Below, piece after piece: positions 19,768 to 36,959 of a stretch of 64,000 bases of DNA (its first letter is position 1; each line of letters opens with the position of its first letter). The stretch comes from Verrucomicrobiaceae bacterium E54. GTDB lineage: Bacteria; Verrucomicrobiota; Verrucomicrobiia; Verrucomicrobiales; Akkermansiaceae. A model generated the notes under the pieces. The model had not been told where the DNA came from and ran no database searches. It was given only the letters and a program-made list of their open reading frames with translations. The stretch is taken from NCBI GenBank assembly GCA_022548915.1, contig JAKZES010000012.1, forward strand, positions 1-64,000, in the 5' to 3' direction. Both the position numbers and the translations under genes were made by a program.

Positions 19768-20062
19768 ATAACCGAGCCGACTGTCATCGGGGAGGCCGGC
19801 GCCGAGGTGGCCGAAGGCGTTCTGATGGTCTCCATTGCCCGCCGAGGGAAGCATGGCCGTGAAACGGCGGTGCGCCGTCGCCGCAAGGTTGATGATTGAC
19901 GAAAGAAGCCGGCTTCGAATGACCTGGTCCACGCGGAAACAGGCACCGCATTTCGAGCGCATGGCCGGGCCCTTTCCATGGATACGTGCCGACGCCGACG
20001 CCTGCCCGCACTTGGGTAGGCGGTCGTCAGAATTCTTGGAAAATCCGACGGTCGGTCCGGGT
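19768..20062. other. Non-coding stretch, nothing recognised
   Basis: No convincing gene on either strand. Short open frames here have no recognisable motif. It lies between gene fragments and the SASA esterase promoter and may be decayed coding sequence. Confidence 0.45.
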
Positions 20063-20091
20063 AATGTGGTTTGGCTCGATCGAGAACCACA
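20063..20091. promoter_or_regulatory. Candidate operator upstream of the SASA esterase
   Basis: ATGTGGTT (20063-20070) and AACCACAT (20084-20091) form a perfect 8-bp dyad with a 13-base spacer, ending 20 bp before the start codon. The position would block transcription or translation initiation. A sugar-responsive repressor site is a reasonable guess. Confidence 0.35.
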
Positions 20092-20111
20092 TCATCCATT
20101 CACCGTCCACC

Positions 20112-21161
20112 ATGAAACAGCATCACATCCTGAGAACTTGCGGCATCGTTGCCGCGATGAGCCTCGCCATCACCGCCGCCACCGCGGCTGAGAACCAGCT
20201 CCCCGATCCGGACGGCAAGCCGGCCGACATGACCAAGCCGGTCCAGGTTTACATCCTGATGGGCCAGTCGAACATGGTCGGCGCCGGCAACGTCAATGGC
20301 GACAAGGACGGCACTCTCGCGCATGCCGTGAAGGAGAAGGGCAGGTATCCCTATCTCGTCGATGACCAGGGCAAGTGGACCGAGCGCAAGGACGTCCGCT
20401 ACGCGCGCGTCATGAACAACCGCCACTTCAACAACGAGTGGCTGAGCATCGAGGGCGACGGCAAGATCGGCCCCGAGTTCGGCATCGGCCACCAGCTCGG
20501 CCACGCCATCGACGCCCCGGTGCTGATCCTCAAGAGCTGCATCGGCAACCGCTGCCTCGGCTTCGACCTGCTGCCGCCCGGCAGCGAGCCCTTCGAGTTC
20601 GAGGAAAAGGGCAAGACGATGGTCCACGCCGGCTACAAGGGATTCGGAATCTGGGAAAAGGGCACCGAGCCGCCGACCAGCGGCTGGTATGCCGGCACCC
20701 AGTACGACGCCGATGTGGATGCCGCCAAACGGGTGCTCAAGCAGCTCGACAAATACTACCCGGATGCCAAGGGATACGAGGTCGCCGGTTTCTTCTGGTG
20801 GCAGGGCGACAAGGACCGCTACCGCGATGTCTGGGCAGACCGCTACGAGGCCAACCTCGTCCAGCTGATCAAGGCGCTTCGCAAGGAGTTCGACGCGCCG
20901 CAGGCGAAGTTCGTCTGCGCCACCCTCGGCCAGACCGAGAAGGGTGCCGAAGGCAACGACGGGAAGATCCTCAATGCCATGTTCGCGATCAGCGATGCGG
21001 AGAAGCATCCCGAGTTCAAGGGTCACGTCGCCACCGTGTACAGCCACCCGCTGAGCATGGGCGGCAGCTCGAACGGCCACTACAACGGCAACGCCGAAAC
21101 CTACATGAACGTCGGCGAGGCCATGGGCGCGGCGATGGTCGGGTTGCTCGGGGCCGAGTGA
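20112..21161 (+). CDS. Secreted sialate O-acetylesterase-type (SASA) carbohydrate esterase
   Basis: Removes acetyl groups from polysaccharide sugars. Start 20112 gives a signal peptide (cut near TAAENQ). The SGNH-like SASA domain begins with VYILMGQSNMVGAG (about 48-61; nucleophile Ser in GQSNM), continues with GPEFGIGHQLG and ILKSCIGNRCLGFDLLPPG, then WWQGDKDRY and a late YNGNAETYMNVGEAMG with the likely catalytic His just upstream (GHYN). 349 residues. It is a paralogue of the esterase domain at 34134-36959. A family of xylan/sialate acetylesterases (CE6-like) is meant; the substrate is not known. Confidence 0.85.
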   Translation: MKQHHILRTCGIVAAMSLAITAATAAENQLPDPDGKPADMTKPVQVYILMGQSNMVGAGNVNGDKDGTLAHAVKEKGRYPYLVDDQGKWTERKDVRYARVMNNRHFNNEWLSIEGDGKIGPEFGIGHQLGHAIDAPVLILKSCIGNRCLGFDLLPPGSEPFEFEEKGKTMVHAGYKGFGIWEKGTEPPTSGWYAGTQYDADVDAAKRVLKQLDKYYPDAKGYEVAGFFWWQGDKDRYRDVWADRYEANLVQLIKALRKEFDAPQAKFVCATLGQTEKGAEGNDGKILNAMFAISDAEKHPEFKGHVATVYSHPLSMGGSSNGHYNGNAETYMNVGEAMGAAMVGLLGAE

Positions 21162-22855: not shown

Positions 22856-25291
22856 ATGAACATGATCAAGAATCTCTTCCTGACATTCCTCACCCTCGCG
22901 GTCGGAGCCGCAAATGCCTGGGCCGCCGACGAGGCCGAGTATGCGCGCATGCTCGAGCAGTTGCGCACGGAACTCACCGCCAAGCTGCCGGATACCGCGA
23001 AGACCGATCAGGTGAACGCGTTCCTGTCCAGTGACAAGCTCGACCCGAAGTTGGCGAAGTTTGTCGTCCTGCACGAGGCCACGCCCAAGGGCTTGGCGGA
23101 ATTTGCGCAGCAGGGCAAGGAACAGGCGGCGCTCATCGACAAGTTGCTCTCGGACCCGCAGCTCATGAAACGCATGCTGGTCGCCGATGGCGCCAAGGAC
23201 GGCAACTACGGTCGCGCGATGGAGATCTACACCGACATCCGCAAGGCCAGCGGGAAGGCCTCAAGTGGCGTGCTCGAGCGGCTGGCGCTCGCGATCGCCC
23301 TGGAACACGCGGTGCCGGTCAAGCAGGACAACCCGCCGGCGCTCACCGACGCGCCGGACACCGTCGATCCGGTGAAGCGCTACCTGCACTACGAGAAGGC
23401 CTATCTCGCCGGCGAACTCGACCCGGCCTTCGACACGCTGGATGTCTGGAGCCTGCGCATGGTCGTCGATGGCGACGAACCCGACGAGACCCTGACGTGG
23501 GGACGTGAAATGCTGCGCAATTTCCGGCCCGATCACATCTACACCTCGAACCACGGCTGGCGCTACACCGGCCTTGTCGGCAGCGACGTCCGCTACGGCT
23601 CCGGCGACGTGAAATATGACCGGCCCGAGTTGCAGCGCTACCAGAACATCCTCATGAATGGCGGAGTCTGCGGCCGCCGCGCGTTCATCGGGCGCTTTAT
23701 CCTCCGCGCCCACGGCATCCCGACCATTGCCAAGCCCAGTCGCGGCCACGGCGCGCTGGCGCGCTGGACGCCCGATGGCTGGGTCGTCAACCTCGGCCCG
23801 AATTGGGGCGGCGGCTGGACGGGCACCCGCTATAAGAACGACCACGATTTCGTCGCCACCACCCAGGCCCGTCCCCACCGCGACGCCTTCCTGAAGGTCA
23901 AGCGGGCGCAATGGGCCGGCGACGTTGCGGGGGAACCGCGGCTCTACGGCGAGAACGACCAGGGCACGGCCGGCCCCTGGTATACCCTCTCGTTCCGCAC
24001 CCAGCGCGCGATCATCGAGAAGGCCGGCACCAAGACGCTGGCCGCACTCGGCACCGAACTTGGCGAATCCAACTCGCCGCTGTCGGTCGCCGAGGAACTT
24101 CTCGCCACCGAAATCAAGCCTGAGGACAAGCAGATCGCCTACGGCGCGGACGGCACCATCTCGATTCCCAGCGCCGCCTTCAGCAAGCCCGCCGGCAGCA
24201 CGCGGGACGTGCTGGTGATGCGCAGCTTCGCCGGCGGCCAGCAGATTTATCTGCCGCGTTTCGCCCGCCAGGGTCTGACGATCCTGCGCGGCGGCACCTG
24301 GAAGGACGGCATCGAGCGCTGCTCTCCCGGGGCGCGCCTGCTCAGCGGTGGCTACGGTCGATACAACGATTGGGGATTTCGGGCCGCGGTGACGCCTGCT
24401 GACGGCGCACCGCCGAAGGAATTGAGCCTCGACCTCGCCAACGGGGTGAAAATGGAACTGGTGTACATCAAACCCGGCACCTTCACCATGGGCGGCGAGC
24501 GCACGACCGATGGCCGCTTCGAATGCGTCGAGGTGCCGAAGCACGAGGTCAAGCTCACCAAGGGATATTACCTCGGCAAGTACGAGGTGACCCAGGCCCA
24601 GTATGAAGCGATCATGGGTTCCAATCCCAGCCGTTCCACCAAGGGCCCGGACCATCCGGTTGACAATGTCGGCGAGCAGGACGCCCGCGAATTCTGCGAG
24701 AAACTCGCCGAGAAAACCGGTCAGGAAGTGCGCCTGCCGACCGAGGCGGAGTGGGAGTATGCCGCCCGCGCGGGCACGGACACCAAGTGGTTCTTCGGCG
24801 ACGACCCCTCGGCGCTCGGCGACTATGCCTGGTTCAAGGAAAACTCGGGCGGCAAGTCGCATCCGGTCGGCCAGAAGAAACCGAATCCGTGGGGGCTCCA
24901 CGACATCTACGGCAACGTCTGCGAGCGGATCTCGGACACTTATGCCAAGGACTACTATGCCAAGGGCCCGAAGGTCGATCCGACCGGGCCGAGCCAGGGC
25001 GACAGTTCGCGTTTCGAATACCAGGTCAACGCGCCCCGTGCCGGCACCTATTCGCTGACGGCCAAGGTGGTCACCGCCAACTACGACCAGCGGCTCAACG
25101 TCGCCGTCAATGACAGCGGCTCCGCGACCACGCTGACGCTGCCCTTCACGCTCGGCAAGTGGCAGGATTCCGAGCCGGTCACGGTCACGCTGAAGGAGGG
25201 CGTGAACACCCTGCGCTTCTGGCGCGACAACCCGCCGCAACAGGGCATCTCCGTCAGTTCCTTCACCTTGAAGCCGGTTTCAGGCACCTGA
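22856..25291 (+). CDS. Secreted transglutaminase-like protein with inserted, permuted SUMF1 domain and C-terminal CBM
   Basis: An 811-residue exported protein (signal peptide 1-23). Residues about 100-340 are transglutaminase-like: GGVCGRRAFIGRF with C272, then SRGHGALARW with the histidine. Residues 474-512 (LTILRGGTW ... WGFRAAVTP) have the pattern that normally ends a SUMF1/formylglycine-generating-enzyme domain. Residues 532-712 (MELVYIKPGTFTMGGE ... KYEVTQAQYEAIMGSNPS ... RLPTEAEWEYAARAGT ... NPWGLHDIYGNVCE ... VDPTGPSQGD) are the part that normally precedes it. The SUMF1 pieces are therefore in swapped order. Residues about 717-811 are a beta-sandwich carbohydrate-binding-like tail. The paired cysteines of true sulfatase-activating enzymes are not visible, so activation of the nearby sulfatases is doubtful. 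Confidence 0.8.
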   Translation: MNMIKNLFLTFLTLAVGAANAWAADEAEYARMLEQLRTELTAKLPDTAKTDQVNAFLSSDKLDPKLAKFVVLHEATPKGLAEFAQQGKEQAALIDKLLSDPQLMKRMLVADGAKDGNYGRAMEIYTDIRKASGKASSGVLERLALAIALEHAVPVKQDNPPALTDAPDTVDPVKRYLHYEKAYLAGELDPAFDTLDVWSLRMVVDGDEPDETLTWGREMLRNFRPDHIYTSNHGWRYTGLVGSDVRYGSGDVKYDRPELQRYQNILMNGGVCGRRAFIGRFILRAHGIPTIAKPSRGHGALARWTPDGWVVNLGPNWGGGWTGTRYKNDHDFVATTQARPHRDAFLKVKRAQWAGDVAGEPRLYGENDQGTAGPWYTLSFRTQRAIIEKAGTKTLAALGTELGESNSPLSVAEELLATEIKPEDKQIAYGADGTISIPSAAFSKPAGSTRDVLVMRSFAGGQQIYLPRFARQGLTILRGGTWKDGIERCSPGARLLSGGYGRYNDWGFRAAVTPADGAPPKELSLDLANGVKMELVYIKPGTFTMGGERTTDGRFECVEVPKHEVKLTKGYYLGKYEVTQAQYEAIMGSNPSRSTKGPDHPVDNVGEQDAREFCEKLAEKTGQEVRLPTEAEWEYAARAGTDTKWFFGDDPSALGDYAWFKENSGGKSHPVGQKKPNPWGLHDIYGNVCERISDTYAKDYYAKGPKVDPTGPSQGDSSRFEYQVNAPRAGTYSLTAKVVTANYDQRLNVAVNDSGSATTLTLPFTLGKWQDSEPVTVTLKEGVNTLRFWRDNPPQQGISVSSFTLKPVSGT

Positions 25292-25795
25292 GACGGCCGA
25301 CAAACCCGACAGGAGCCTTCTCGGAGGAAGGATCCGGTCGACCGCCAGCTTTACAACGACGCCAAGCGCCCCTTGATGGTGTTTCCGGAGATCTTGATGT
25401 ATCGGAACCACCGCGGCATGTTGGTCAAGAAGGACTACTGGAAACAACTGCAGGACGAGTTCAACAGCTACGATGCCGCGCTGATGAAAGGCGGCTGGCC
25501 CTACGCCGAGCGCTGGAACACCGACATCGCCTCCGTGATGTTCCTGTCATGGTTCCGGGATCCTTCCCAGTCCGTGGATGCGATTCTGAACGAATACGCC
25601 GCGACCTACTTCGGCCCCGCCACGGAGACCGGCAGGAAGCTGCTCGATCTGCTTGACGACGGCAACGCCGATCCGGAACGCAAACAGAAGATCCAAGCCA
25701 CGCTCGCCACTCTCGAACGCACCGCCCCCGAATGGGTCAAACACGACTGGCGCTGGCAGGAAATCGTCACCGCCTGCGCCACGAAGAGCCGATGA
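25292..25795 (+). pseudogene. 3' remnant of a DUF4838-like glycosidase gene
   Basis: Coding-like sequence without its own early start, running in the same frame directly after the TGA of the preceding gene (25289-25291). It encodes DPVDRQLYNDAKRPLMVFPE, then a helical segment with WPYAERWNTDIASVMFLSWF and VDAILNEYAATYFGP, then a stop. This looks like the C terminus of a large DUF4838/alpha-glucuronidase-like enzyme of about 700 residues or more. The internal ATG at 25373 or 25376 could start a 140-residue product, but no catalytic part would remain. Confidence 0.6.
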
Positions 25796-25820
25796 TGGGA
25801 TCCGGGCGACTCGAGAAGAA

Positions 25821-26771
25821 ATGAACGGCAAGAACCACCCTCCATCCATCGCCCACCGTTTCCCCTTCGCCCTGCGTGGCCTGATCGGAGTGGCCTTGGC
25901 CGTGCTTTGTTTCCAGCCCGCGGGCGCGGCGGGGGACTCGGTCCGGCTGATCCTTCGCCCGCAGGCGGACAAGGTGCTGGGAAGGCTCGGCGAGGTGTTC
26001 GAACGGCAGCTCGGACAACGCTGCGAGGCCAGGGTGAATCGTGAAGGGGAAGCAGCGCTCACCGTGGAGTTGGCGGTCGCGCCGGGGTTCGGCACGGAGG
26101 GATACCTCATCAAGGACCGGCGGGGCGGGGGAGTGCGCATCGTCGGCAACGACGTGCGCGGCGTGGTCGCAGGCACCGGGAAATTCCTCCGCACCTCGCG
26201 CTACGACCAGGGCGGCTTCACCGCCGGTACATGGCGCGGCACCTCGGTCCCGCAAAAACCCCATCGCGGCATCTACTTCGCCACCCATTTCCATAACTAT
26301 CTCGTCTACAGCCAGTTATACTGGAGCGACCGCCCGGCGGCGGAAACGGTGGAGGAATACATCGCCTTCGAGTTCTCGCCGGATGTGGTGGCCGAGGTGG
26401 CGGAGGTCATCCGGACGCTCGAGCGGAACCACCGGATGCGCTGGTGGCCGGGGAAACTGGAAGGAGTACCGCTGCTCATGAACTGGTTCCCGTCACGGGG
26501 CGCAGAACCGAGGGACGATCCAGGCGCCGAGGAGGCTTACGCCACGATGCGGAAGGTGGACGCCGCCATGACGCCCCAGGCGAGGAAGTCATGGCGCTGG
26601 CGGCAGCTCTACCTGCGCGCCTTGCTCGATTCCGAACTGAAAACCAATGGCGGCAGCCCGAACGACCTCTGCAACGAGGCATTCGCCGAGTTGATCGAAA
26701 TCTATCATGCCGAGAACGCCATCGGCACCGTCCGGCCGCCCCTGCCAAAGGGCTGGAAACGATCGGAGTGA
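25821..26771 (+). pseudogene. Internally deleted DUF4838-like glycosidase gene
   Basis: An open frame of 316 codons with signal peptide. The N terminus (residues about 35-150: LRPQADKVLGRLGEVFERQL, VRIVGNDVRGVVAGTGKFLR, PHRGIYFATHFHN) is the beta-alpha module that precedes the catalytic barrel in DUF4838-type enzymes. It jumps straight to a C-terminal helical domain (YWSDRPAAETVEEYIAFEFS, NHRMRWWPGKLEGV, WRWRQLYLRALLDSELKTNG). The catalytic barrel of some 300 residues between them is missing, though the frame is kept. It may still be expressed but is unlikely to be an active hydrolase. The preceding fragment belongs to the same kind of gene. Confidence 0.6.
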
Positions 26772-33944: not shown

Positions 33945-34076
33945 GAGCCGGTGTGCCGTTGATGTCGTGAAGGAAGGCGTGCCGCTGGCGGAGGATCCCC
34001 GGCCTGCCCGCTTTGGGTGAGCTTGTCCGGAGGATTTCATGAAGATCCCGCGTCCCGGTCCTGTAGCAATGGGAGG

Positions 34077-34096
34077 GCCCGGACGGGATGCCGGGC
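34077..34096 (+). terminator. Possible terminator after the phosphoesterase
   Basis: GCCCGG (34077-34082) and CCGGGC (34091-34096) pair with an 8-base loop, 38 bp before the next start codon. No T-run follows. It could equally be a leader hairpin of the next gene. Confidence 0.35.
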
Positions 34097-34133
34097 ACCG
34101 GGCATTTCCAACGAATCAAAACCGAAACTCTCG

Positions 34134-36959
34134 ATGAGACCATTTACCAAGAGCTGTTCCTTCAAACTCCTGATCGCCGCTGTGCTCGTCATCCCGGCGA
34201 CGCAGGCCGAAACCGTCCTTTACCGCTCGGGTGGCGGCAAGTGGGACGCGACAACGAAATCCTGGAGCCCCGTTTCCGGTGGCCCGTATGACGCGGCGTG
34301 GGTTGACGGCGGCAAGGCTGTCTTCGAGGGCACACCGGGCACGGTGACGCTGGGCGGCGACGTGAGTCTCAAGGCGCTCGAGTTCACCGCGGCCAGCTCC
34401 GGATTCCGGATCGAGGGACACACCCTGAAGTTCGGGCCCGGCGGCACGATCACGAATGCGGTTCCGAACGTGGACCACACCATCACCTCGGCGATCACCG
34501 GCAAGCCGGCCGTGCGGATCGCCGACAACTCCGGCGGAATCTATCTCGGCCTCACCTTTGCGCCCACCGAAGGCAGCATGGCGCTCGGCGGCGTGATGCT
34601 GCCCTATGAAAGCGGCAAGGGCGACAAAGGCGGGATCACCTTCGCGGGCTCCACCACCGGCAACACCATCGGCGAGGTCGATTTCGAGGGCGGCAACCGC
34701 TACGCCGATTTCCGCAAGGAGGGGCCGGGCACCTGGACGGTCGAGGGCGGCACGCGGATCGGCACCATCAAGCTCGCGGAAGGCACCCTCGCCCTGCACG
34801 GACCGGTCGAGTGCGTCTACTCGGGCTTCCAATTCACCGGAGGCACGCTGGCCGGCACCGGTCCGATCAAGAACGATCTTGTGGTGCCCGCCGGTGGAAA
34901 GCTCGCTCCGGGAGCGCCGACCGGTCCGCTCGGCATCGTGGGAACGCTTGACCTTTCCGCGCTGGCCGCGGGCGAAGGCACGATCGAACTCCAGCTCGAC
35001 GCCGCGGGCCGGCCGAGCGACCGGATCGAGGTCACCGGCACGGTCGACATCGGCGATGGGGCGCTCGGTTTCAGCGATTTCACCTTCACCGATCTGGGTG
35101 GCGTCGAGGCGGGAGCCTACGTGCTCGTCAGCGCCACCGGGGGCATCACCGGCACCCTTGATCCCGACGACCGCCTCGGCACCATCGGCGGCCTGAACGG
35201 CGCCTTGCAGATCAACGGCAAGCGCCTCGAATGGGCCACCGACGCCGACGGCGACGGGATTCCCGATCCCTTCGAGCTGGCGCACACCCGCCCGGCCTCC
35301 GCGACCGCGCTCAAGCCCGGCGACGACCCGGATGACGACGGTCTCGACAACCTCGGCGAGTATCTCCACGGCACCGATCCCAACAACCCGGACAGCGACG
35401 GCGACCAACTCGAAGATGGCGCGGAAGTTGCGGGTGCCGGGGGGCGTCCGGCGACCGATCCGACCCTGGCCGACACCGACGCCGATGGCTTGAGCGACCG
35501 GGCGGAAACGCACACCGGCAAGTGGATCGATTCCTCCAACACCGGGACCAACCCCGCCGTAGTCGACAGCGATGGCGACGGCCTTTCCGATACGGTGGAA
35601 ACGAACACCGGGAAGTTCGTCGACGCCACCAACACCGGCACTGACCCGAACCTGTCTAACAGTGATGGGGACCGGGCGGGCGACTGGTATGAGGTGGCGG
35701 CTTCGTTCACCGACCCGACCGACCCGCAGGACCAGCCCGGCATCCCGCTGCCGCTGCCCGATCCCGACCCCGCGGACCAGGGTGCCACCGGCAAGCCGGT
35801 GAAGGTTTACATCCTCTCCGGGCAGTCGAACATGGTCGGCTTCGGGCGAGTTTACGGCGAGGGCCCGGGGACGCTGGAAACCGTGACCAAGGTCCAGAAC
35901 CGCTTTCCGAACATGCTCGACGAAGCGTCCGGAGGCTGGACGGTGCGCAACGATGTCTTTTACCGCGGCGTGGTCTCCGACATCGGTGCCGGACCGCTCA
36001 AGCCTGACGTGGCGGGCGACAGCTTCGGGCCCGAACTCGGGTTTGGCCATGTGATGGGATACCACCACGACGCGCCGGTCCTCCTTATCAAGAGCTGCAT
36101 CGGCAACCGCAGCCTGAGCTGGGATTTCCTGCCCCCCGGCAGCGGGTCTTTCGACCGCACCGAGGACGGCGAAACCTTCACCTATGCCGGCTACGGCCAG
36201 TCGCCCAACCGCTGGCCGGCGGACGGGGGGGCGAGTCCCTTCGTGTGGTATGCCGGGAAGCAATACGACGACTGCTTTCTCGACGGGGCCGATATGGGTG
36301 CGCCCGCTTGGGCGGCCGACCTTTCCTACCCGAAAGGCTCGCAGGTCCGCCATGGCGGCGTGGTTTACCTCGCCACGGCGGAGCATCGATCCAGCAAGAC
36401 CAACGAACCCGGGTCCGGCGCGGACTGGAAGAAGAACTGGGAGGTTTACTCGGTCTTCAACGTCACCGACATCCTAGACCACTTCGCCACTGAGTATCCG
36501 CAGTGGGCGGACCAGGGGTTCGAGATCGCCGGCTTCGTCTGGTGGCAGGGTCACAAGGACGGCGGCGAGCAGGGTTCCGGCGAGGCCGGTGCCGCGGCGT
36601 TGCGATACGAGCAGAACCTCGTCAACCTGATCGAAAGCCTGCGCAACTACTATGAGGACCGTTATCCCGGGAACACCGTCAAGGATGCGCCCTTCACGGT
36701 GGCCACGGTCGGCTTCGGCGGCGGTGGCTGGGACCCGGGCAGCAGCGCCGACGTCATTTTCAAGGCGCAGCTAGCGGTGAGCGATCCCGAGCGCCATCCG
36801 GACCTCGCGGGCACGGTGGGCTCGGTCGATACCACTGGCTACTGGCGCGATGAGTCCGTGTCACCGAAGGGCCAGGGCTTCCACTACAATCACAACGCCG
36901 AGACCTACCTGCTCACCGGTGACGCCCTCGGCCGGGCGATGATCGAACTCGAGAAGTAG
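34134..36959 (+). CDS. Large secreted SASA esterase with passenger-like repeats, calcium-type repeats and inserted CBM
   Basis: A 941-residue exported protein. Start 34134 gives a signal peptide ending near TQAETV. Residues about 25-360 are autotransporter-passenger-like beta repeats (GPGTWTVEGGT, LAEGTLALHG, FTGGTLAGTGPI). Residues about 370-540 hold several aspartate-rich calcium-binding repeats (DADGDGIPDPFE, DSDGDQLEDGAE, DTDADGLSDRAE, DSDGDGLSDTVE). From about 550 a SASA esterase domain starts with VYILSGQSNMVGFG and includes LLIKSCIGNRSLSWDFLPPG and FVWWQGHKDGG. About residues 724-768 are a CBM5/12-like insert (DLSYPKGSQVRHGGVVYLA ... SGADWKKNW). It probably deacetylates a polysaccharide while bound to it or to the cell surface. 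The esterase resembles 20112-21161. Confidence 0.85.
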   Translation: MRPFTKSCSFKLLIAAVLVIPATQAETVLYRSGGGKWDATTKSWSPVSGGPYDAAWVDGGKAVFEGTPGTVTLGGDVSLKALEFTAASSGFRIEGHTLKFGPGGTITNAVPNVDHTITSAITGKPAVRIADNSGGIYLGLTFAPTEGSMALGGVMLPYESGKGDKGGITFAGSTTGNTIGEVDFEGGNRYADFRKEGPGTWTVEGGTRIGTIKLAEGTLALHGPVECVYSGFQFTGGTLAGTGPIKNDLVVPAGGKLAPGAPTGPLGIVGTLDLSALAAGEGTIELQLDAAGRPSDRIEVTGTVDIGDGALGFSDFTFTDLGGVEAGAYVLVSATGGITGTLDPDDRLGTIGGLNGALQINGKRLEWATDADGDGIPDPFELAHTRPASATALKPGDDPDDDGLDNLGEYLHGTDPNNPDSDGDQLEDGAEVAGAGGRPATDPTLADTDADGLSDRAETHTGKWIDSSNTGTNPAVVDSDGDGLSDTVETNTGKFVDATNTGTDPNLSNSDGDRAGDWYEVAASFTDPTDPQDQPGIPLPLPDPDPADQGATGKPVKVYILSGQSNMVGFGRVYGEGPGTLETVTKVQNRFPNMLDEASGGWTVRNDVFYRGVVSDIGAGPLKPDVAGDSFGPELGFGHVMGYHHDAPVLLIKSCIGNRSLSWDFLPPGSGSFDRTEDGETFTYAGYGQSPNRWPADGGASPFVWYAGKQYDDCFLDGADMGAPAWAADLSYPKGSQVRHGGVVYLATAEHRSSKTNEPGSGADWKKNWEVYSVFNVTDILDHFATEYPQWADQGFEIAGFVWWQGHKDGGEQGSGEAGAAALRYEQNLVNLIESLRNYYEDRYPGNTVKDAPFTVATVGFGGGGWDPGSSADVIFKAQLAVSDPERHPDLAGTVGSVDTTGYWRDESVSPKGQGFHYNHNAETYLLTGDALGRAMIELEK

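Follow-up and report, generated by a model that had tools for sequence, protein, structure and literature searches.

A SUMF1/FGE domain in circularly permuted sequence order in the linker of a transglutaminase-like protein family of the PVC group

Natural circular permutations occur in many folds. In the SUMF1/FGE family (PF03781), the canonical order places the first and middle parts of the domain before its end, and the active site of FGE has two Cys residues five positions apart after the RGGS motif (C336 and C341 in the human enzyme). The best-scoring solved structure of this family in our searches was TvpA of Treponema denticola (2y3c). A literature search of open-licence papers returned, in the portions of text available, no report of a permuted SUMF1/FGE domain. 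The same applies to the retrieved sections of PMC8195603, PMC10907252, and PMC7824862, in which the items described as circularly permuted were a transglutaminase-like peptidase (PMC8195603) and a methylase (PMC7824862).

Here we analyzed a stretch of 64,000 nucleotides (the window) from a Verrucomicrobiaceae genome. One of its genes very likely represents a family of the PVC group, probably secreted, in which a complete and circularly permuted SUMF1/FGE (C-type-lectin-like) domain sits in the linker that leads from a transglutaminase-like region to a CBM6/35-like module.

Order of the SUMF1 parts in the window protein

The protein starts with a stretch that resembles a signal peptide by eye. 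In what follows, the usual end of SUMF1 (residues 477-514) is called the C-part and the usual first ~80% (residues 531-712) the N-part. The features of the gene are:

22856..25291, + strand: whole ORF, 811 aa (translation), with the transglutaminase-like region, permuted SUMF1, and CBM-like module
22931..24265, + strand: helical N-terminal part and transglutaminase-like Cys/His region, residues 26-470, GGxCG then His
24284..24397, + strand: moved SUMF1/FGE C-terminal part, residues 477-514, LRGGTW...WGFRAAVTP
24398..24445, + strand: new linker between the former C and N termini, residues 515-530
24446..24991, + strand: SUMF1/FGE N-terminal and middle part, residues 531-712, VKMELVYIKPG...DPTGP (PF03781, 6.4e-33)
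25001..25279, + strand: CBM6/35-like beta-sandwich, residues 716-808 (PF03422, E 0.0042, below cut-off)

Pfam recognized PF03781 at residues 534-709 only, which correspond to profile positions 4-206 of 255, with a score of 114.9 bits that exceeds the curated cut-off of 23.3 bits. Since the match stops at position 206, the last ~49 profile positions are absent downstream of the N-part. A segment with homology to the final ~40 residues of SUMF1/FGE domains was found upstream of it, at 477-514. PF03781 was matched by all 42 family members at E<=0.1. When the window protein was compared with TvpA by phmmer, residues 562-622 aligned to positions 52-118 of the chain, residues 623-716 to positions 160-253, and residues 475-514 to positions 255-294, i.e., the end of the chain. 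This last piece was not significant alone (8.0 bits, i-E 5.8), and further tests of the homology of the C-part were therefore made.

Re-ordering the parts in silico produced a match to profile positions 4-254 of 255 in one stretch at 135.3 bits, so the domain is complete, as compared with 120.6 bits and positions 4-205 for the native order and 118.5 bits for the N-part alone; the C-part alone had no Pfam match. Likewise, the total against 2y3c rose from 92.4 bits in native order to 122 bits after re-ordering. A profile built from the C-parts of the family was also run on 3,972 non-family ORFs, where 36 of 43 matches at i-E<0.1 fell directly behind an N-part, as did 66/105 at i-E<1 and 93/159 at i-E<10. 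The comparison of this profile by hhalign with 48 distinct canonical C-parts scored 97.9% over 38 columns (4.1% for the reversed control), a test that is partly circular and favours a match because these C-parts were picked by their RGG...GFR motif, which makes the ORF test the cleaner one. In our motif classification, none of the 49 family rows had an RGG motif after the N-part, so no remnant was seen at the old place.

The protein is thus a circular permutation in sequence, in which each part occurs once, swapped and joined by a new linker. With the C-part preceding the N-part, it is a permuted relative and not an ordinary member of PF03781. A sequence-only reading of this gene had taken residues 474-512 for the usual end of the domain and residues 532-712 for its beginning and middle, with the break between DPTGPS and LRGG. 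Both assignments proved correct, with boundaries shifted by no more than a few residues (first residue of LRGG at 477, last of AVTP at 514, first of MELVYI at 533), and the single-stretch match of the re-ordered parts supports the permutation itself and its break point.

Distribution and origin of the permuted insert

A scan of a genome collection provided 61 related loci, which were sorted by domain order. The permuted order (transglutaminase-like part, C-part, N-part) was found at 46 of them (L012-L055, L060, and L061), and a CBM closes these proteins wherever the contig reaches. All four blocks lie in one frame at 41 of the 46; L044, L050, L052, and L055 run off the contig, and a stretch of N interrupts L053. 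The remaining loci comprised four in which the flanks are joined directly without an insert (L056-L059) and 11 coding for SUMF1 proteins without these flanks (L062-L072). According to the record titles, the loci derive from Planctomycetota, groups of Verrucomicrobiota, Lentisphaera, and one Latescibacterota MAG. The permuted domain is now present in Verrucomicrobiota, Planctomycetota, and Lentisphaerota, and the expectation of a one-off arrangement failed.

Three proteins of the window's own genome have unbroken flanks, and one further gene there is a permuted paralogue (L002, G000:C222:4907-7246; 53% identity) that is interrupted by an in-frame TAG. No end branch of the flank tree is longer than that of this paralogue (1.21), which is perhaps a decaying copy. 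PF03781 had ten matches in this genome. Five of them extend to profile position 254 and include a middle or N-part, those in the two permuted genes end at 206-207, and the remainder are fragments. One of these is a lone end part (positions 206-254) in an open frame of 132 aa at G000:C255:56491-56628, ~2 kb from a canonical copy.

Outside the family, all SUMF1 copies that could be classified are in canonical order. Specifically, when 387 genomes of the phylum were searched with an alignment and the best six or fewer candidates per genome were scored, 165 had a match at E<=1e-30. Only four loci from three genomes exceeded 300 bits in this search, all of them family members, and the next match (215.6 bits) was canonical. 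Motif classification of loci L001-L125 found RGG upstream only in 49 rows, all belonging to the family and including repeat fetches of the same genes (L001/L073, L049/L074/L116, and L075/L115), downstream in 35, and in neither position in eight; of these eight, L002 and L053 are family members and the others are truncated or carry a deviant motif. A further 88 loci were classified, 78 from viral contigs (of 225 relatives found) and ten from the window's own genome. Their domain copies had RGG downstream in 118 cases, upstream only in one (the window itself), and neither in 16, comprising two of the own-genome paralogue, 12 with a canonical C-part by eye, and two incomplete ones. Among 38 plasmid records, none spanned 80% of the query, and the ten matches listed lay within residues 514-751.

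Alignment of 42 permuted and seven unbroken proteins revealed a clean insertion between GGxQxHYSR (GGxQIFLPRF in the permuted proteins) and xxFEY. The seven unbroken seed proteins, three of which are same-genome paralogues, run directly through ...GGKQLHYSR-GxxxxFEY.... A tree was computed from the flanking segments only, with 45 permuted and 22 unbroken proteins (L049 and L074 being identical). All 45 permuted proteins formed one clade (support 99/100, present in 98% of bootstrap trees), separate from the unbroken ones, which points to a single insertion of a complete permuted SUMF1 domain into an existing linker. The proposal that GGQQIYLPRF and FEYQVNAP are one interrupted linker was upheld by the seven directly joined proteins and by this tree. 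Since the deepest branch is the unbroken pair L118/L123, the empty linker is likely the ancestral state, with the tree rooted by midpoint only. The arrangement looks like one old, conserved event and not an oddity of one gene.

As to where the unit came from, tandem SUMF1 arrays occur in the phylum (L082, L083, L085, and L101), and in them the C-part of one copy is followed by the N-part of the next. A shifted C-part/N-part unit could have been cut out of an array such as that of L082. In relatives, pieces of one junction motif remain at either end of the insert (..PQGTTIMRGG and DPTGPSQGT.., by eye), as would be expected if the unit had been cut and closed within that motif. In a quick SUMF1 tree (54 rows with many open forks, L053 being entered as single although this locus is permuted and interrupted by a stretch of N), the permuted clade stands on its own long stem at a fork and not within the tandem arrays. 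Direct repeats at the insert ends were short and chance-like among the best 20 of 29 families, with none pairing both junctions. Neither a canonical nor a double SUMF1 was seen in this linker at the 61 loci or among 23 matches in 17 of the 387 genomes, obtained by a search with the unbroken alignment that took the best three candidates per genome and did not return the window's own gene. The sequence-only reading had offered either the insertion of a permuted copy or the collapse of two tandem copies by deletion, and had pointed to orthologues with an unbroken linker or with two full SUMF1 copies as a way to tell how it formed. Permuted insertion was right in kind, and unbroken linkers do exist (4/61 loci and the own genome); two full copies were absent from the loci surveyed, and, with no intermediates in these capped surveys and a quick tree without nesting in the arrays, either insertion or collapse may have formed the arrangement.

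Flanking regions and gene neighbourhood

Residues 1-471 had no Pfam match at E<=1, and the divergent sister L123 matched PF01841 below the cut-off (E 0.034, 14.9 bits against 23). Comparison of the transglutaminase-like region with 19 Transglut_core segments by hhalign scored 85% (0.3% for the reversed control) and aligned the GxC and the His with Transglut_core; this Cys and this His are invariant in eight diverse members. The third catalytic residue of transglutaminases is an Asp. The hhalign alignment ends before it, and by eye the residue right after the W of the GW motif is not an Asp in the window protein or the eight members. Profile searches of the PDB for solved relatives of the N-terminal region gave matches only in the CBM part. 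The region thus appears transglutaminase-like at the superfamily level only: the transglutaminase label is weaker than the earlier reading suggested.

At residues 714-788, the window protein has a sub-threshold match to CBM_6/CBM_35 (17.8 bits against a cut-off of 28.9). The sister L118 reached 25.3 bits against the same cut-off, and 25/42 members matched a CBM at E<=0.1. The model of this module is a beta-sandwich similar to solved CBM6/35 structures, with Foldseek E values of 2.5e-5 to 8.3e-4 among the 50 matches listed, many of which are named CBM35 or CBM6. In one divergent sister (L125, G268:C53; ORF of 717 aa), an F5/8 type C (discoidin) domain at residues 539-657 lies inside the CBM, which is split into profile positions 6-36 at residues 499-529 and 40-92 at residues 664-714. 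Judged by these matches, L125 appears to be a second domain insertion in the same protein family.

The gene of the window is flanked by those of SASA esterase, pectate-lyase-like, DUF5703/GH95-like, and apiosidase-like proteins. ORFs for SASA-type carbohydrate esterases lie at 19986-21161 and 34017-36959. An ORF with the SASA motif GQSNM was found near 23 of the 46 permuted loci as compared with 2.8 expected, an expectation taken from the density in one genome (the own genome, 60 matches in 49 frames) and applied to 46 loci that are not independent; such an ORF was also near 2/4 unbroken loci and 0/11 SUMF1-only loci. Just downstream of the gene, the overlapping ORFs 25373-25795 and 25653-26771 resemble by eye C-terminal and then N-terminal pieces of a glycosidase-like protein, and neither had a Pfam match at E<=0.001. 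The apiosidase-like ORF at 29291-30253 matches only positions 130-319 of the 320 of its profile, and its start may therefore be in another frame or lost.

Inferred fold, probable function, competing readings, and comparison with known systems

Mean pairwise identity within the protein is highest in the two SUMF1 parts (0.756 for the C-part and 0.757 for the N-part), ahead of the transglutaminase-like part (0.701), the CBM (0.597), and the joining linker (0.567, with 0/16 columns invariant). Within residues 474-514, 15 of 41 columns are invariant in 42 homologues. Such nearly equal conservation, with the order kept in 46 loci, largely refutes the notion that the gene holds two leftovers, i.e., the tail of one SUMF1 copy and a shortened second one that decay without sharing a domain, as does the fact that the parts jointly make up one domain. 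That notion, to which we assign very little probability, draws on the expectation that a collapse of tandem copies should leave fragments, tandem arrays being known in the phylum, and on pairwise identities of the C-part that track those of the N-part only moderately (Spearman 0.42, as compared with 0.75 for the transglutaminase-like part, the 41 columns of the C-part being noisy). An assembly or frameshift artefact in the window's contig might be suspected in a genome of 255 contigs, and was ruled out to near certainty because other assemblies show this order at 46 loci, among them the chromosome-titled L061 (CP036272) and the named strain L049. How the parts pack was addressed with AlphaFold models of the domain (42 sequences, mean pLDDT 66.5) and of the full-length protein (mean pLDDT 70.5). 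This structure prediction, proposed with the original reading, gave a divided answer: the N-part fold (in the domain model, Z 17.1 to 2y3c, rmsd 2.1 over 180 residues; ~Z 12 to several FGE structures) and the joining strands are confident (block-mean pLDDT 91-95 for residues 512-541 of the domain model, which hold the linker and adjoining strands, and 91-94 for the linker itself; 79-90 for residues 506-535 of the full-length model), whereas pLDDT is below 50 at residues 462-503 of the former and at 441-485 and 489-504 of the latter, so that the RGGTW loop is not confidently placed. We infer that the C-part would pack back onto the N-part of the same chain. The fold would then be the usual one, starting and ending at the loop that precedes the RGG strand, and the former termini would be closed by a linker of ~16 residues. 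Domain swapping, by which the C-part of one chain would complete the N-part of another, and dimers or filaments would form in place of a closed monomer, seems to us improbable. It gains from the unplaced loop and from the fact that packing within and between chains looks the same in sequence, but the stretch that joins the parts has just 26-28 residues in 42/42 members, measured between the Arg of GFR and the Glu of MEL (about as in the tightest tandem arrays, judged by eye from L082), and is modelled with high confidence within a single chain.

The first active-site position of FGE, fixed by alignment to 6muj, is a Cys in 1/42 members and G, D, N, S, or F in the other 41; the second, placed by spacing, is a Cys in 39/42. 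The only permuted member with Cys at both positions is at L060:7309-8091 (RGGTWKCDTGVC). Because the first Cys is so rare, catalysis of the FGE type is unlikely, and the Cys pair led us to reject an active FGE. An active FGE-type or related oxidase with neighbouring sulfatases as its targets would agree with the PF03781 homology, with the sulfatase at 34-1485 of the window, with an automatic cluster of sulfatase-like representative that touches 16/47 regions, and with a loose sulfatase motif in 10/46 loci. We hold it to be highly improbable in view of the missing Cys and of a stricter motif that left a sulfatase-like ORF in 6/46 loci only; with these counts, the linkage to sulfatases was not relied on. 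PVC genomes are moreover rich in sulfatases, which weakens the oxidase reading further.

The permuted domain is probably a non-catalytic binding or scaffold module. With less certainty, it would bind a ligand or act as a scaffold while attached beside the loop that holds the active-site Cys of FGE, and the protein would act on or at acetylated polysaccharide beside the SASA-type carbohydrate esterases. Our best guess, drawn from the neighbours and the sub-threshold CBM match, is that the protein is secreted and has an accessory role in polysaccharide breakdown, its permuted domain binding a ligand or keeping the flanking parts together. A bolder proposal, which we regard as doubtful, is that the SUMF1/FGE branch of the C-type-lectin-like fold has here its first natural circular permutation, fixed by selection. 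The termini beside the former active-site strand would then plug the domain in by its substrate face, placing the transglutaminase-like domain and the CBM over the SUMF1 ligand groove, which they may cap or feed, in a three-part device for a peptide or acylated glycan, unlike an appended lectin.

With 46 of 61 loci, several phyla, and an empty site still present in same-genome sisters, the family offers a clean natural experiment on the rise and retention of a circular permutation. It also carries a warning, namely that where a profile match breaks off after ~80% of a domain, the missing end may lie permuted upstream.

Compared with the SUMF1/FGE family as represented by TvpA, the window protein is alike in the sequence and fold of its N-part and in the homology of its C-part, and differs in the swapped order of the parts, in its position within a linker, and in having a residue other than Cys at the first active-site position of FGE in 41/42 members. 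The unbroken transglutaminase-like/CBM proteins (L003, L004, L005, and others, some from the own genome) share the same flanks, alignable on both sides of the insert, but are without SUMF1 and have a short linker. Tandem SUMF1 arrays (L082, L083, L085, and L101) show the same local order of a C-part running into the next N-part, although their copies are canonical, without these flanks, and not nested with the permuted clade in the quick tree. The best SUMF1-only match of the genome-collection scan, L062 from Planctomycetota, has 52% identity over its best segment. In that tree it joins the permuted clade at an unresolved fork, and what sets it apart is its canonical order, ...DPQGPDSGKRHVDRGGGW...GFRVVV.
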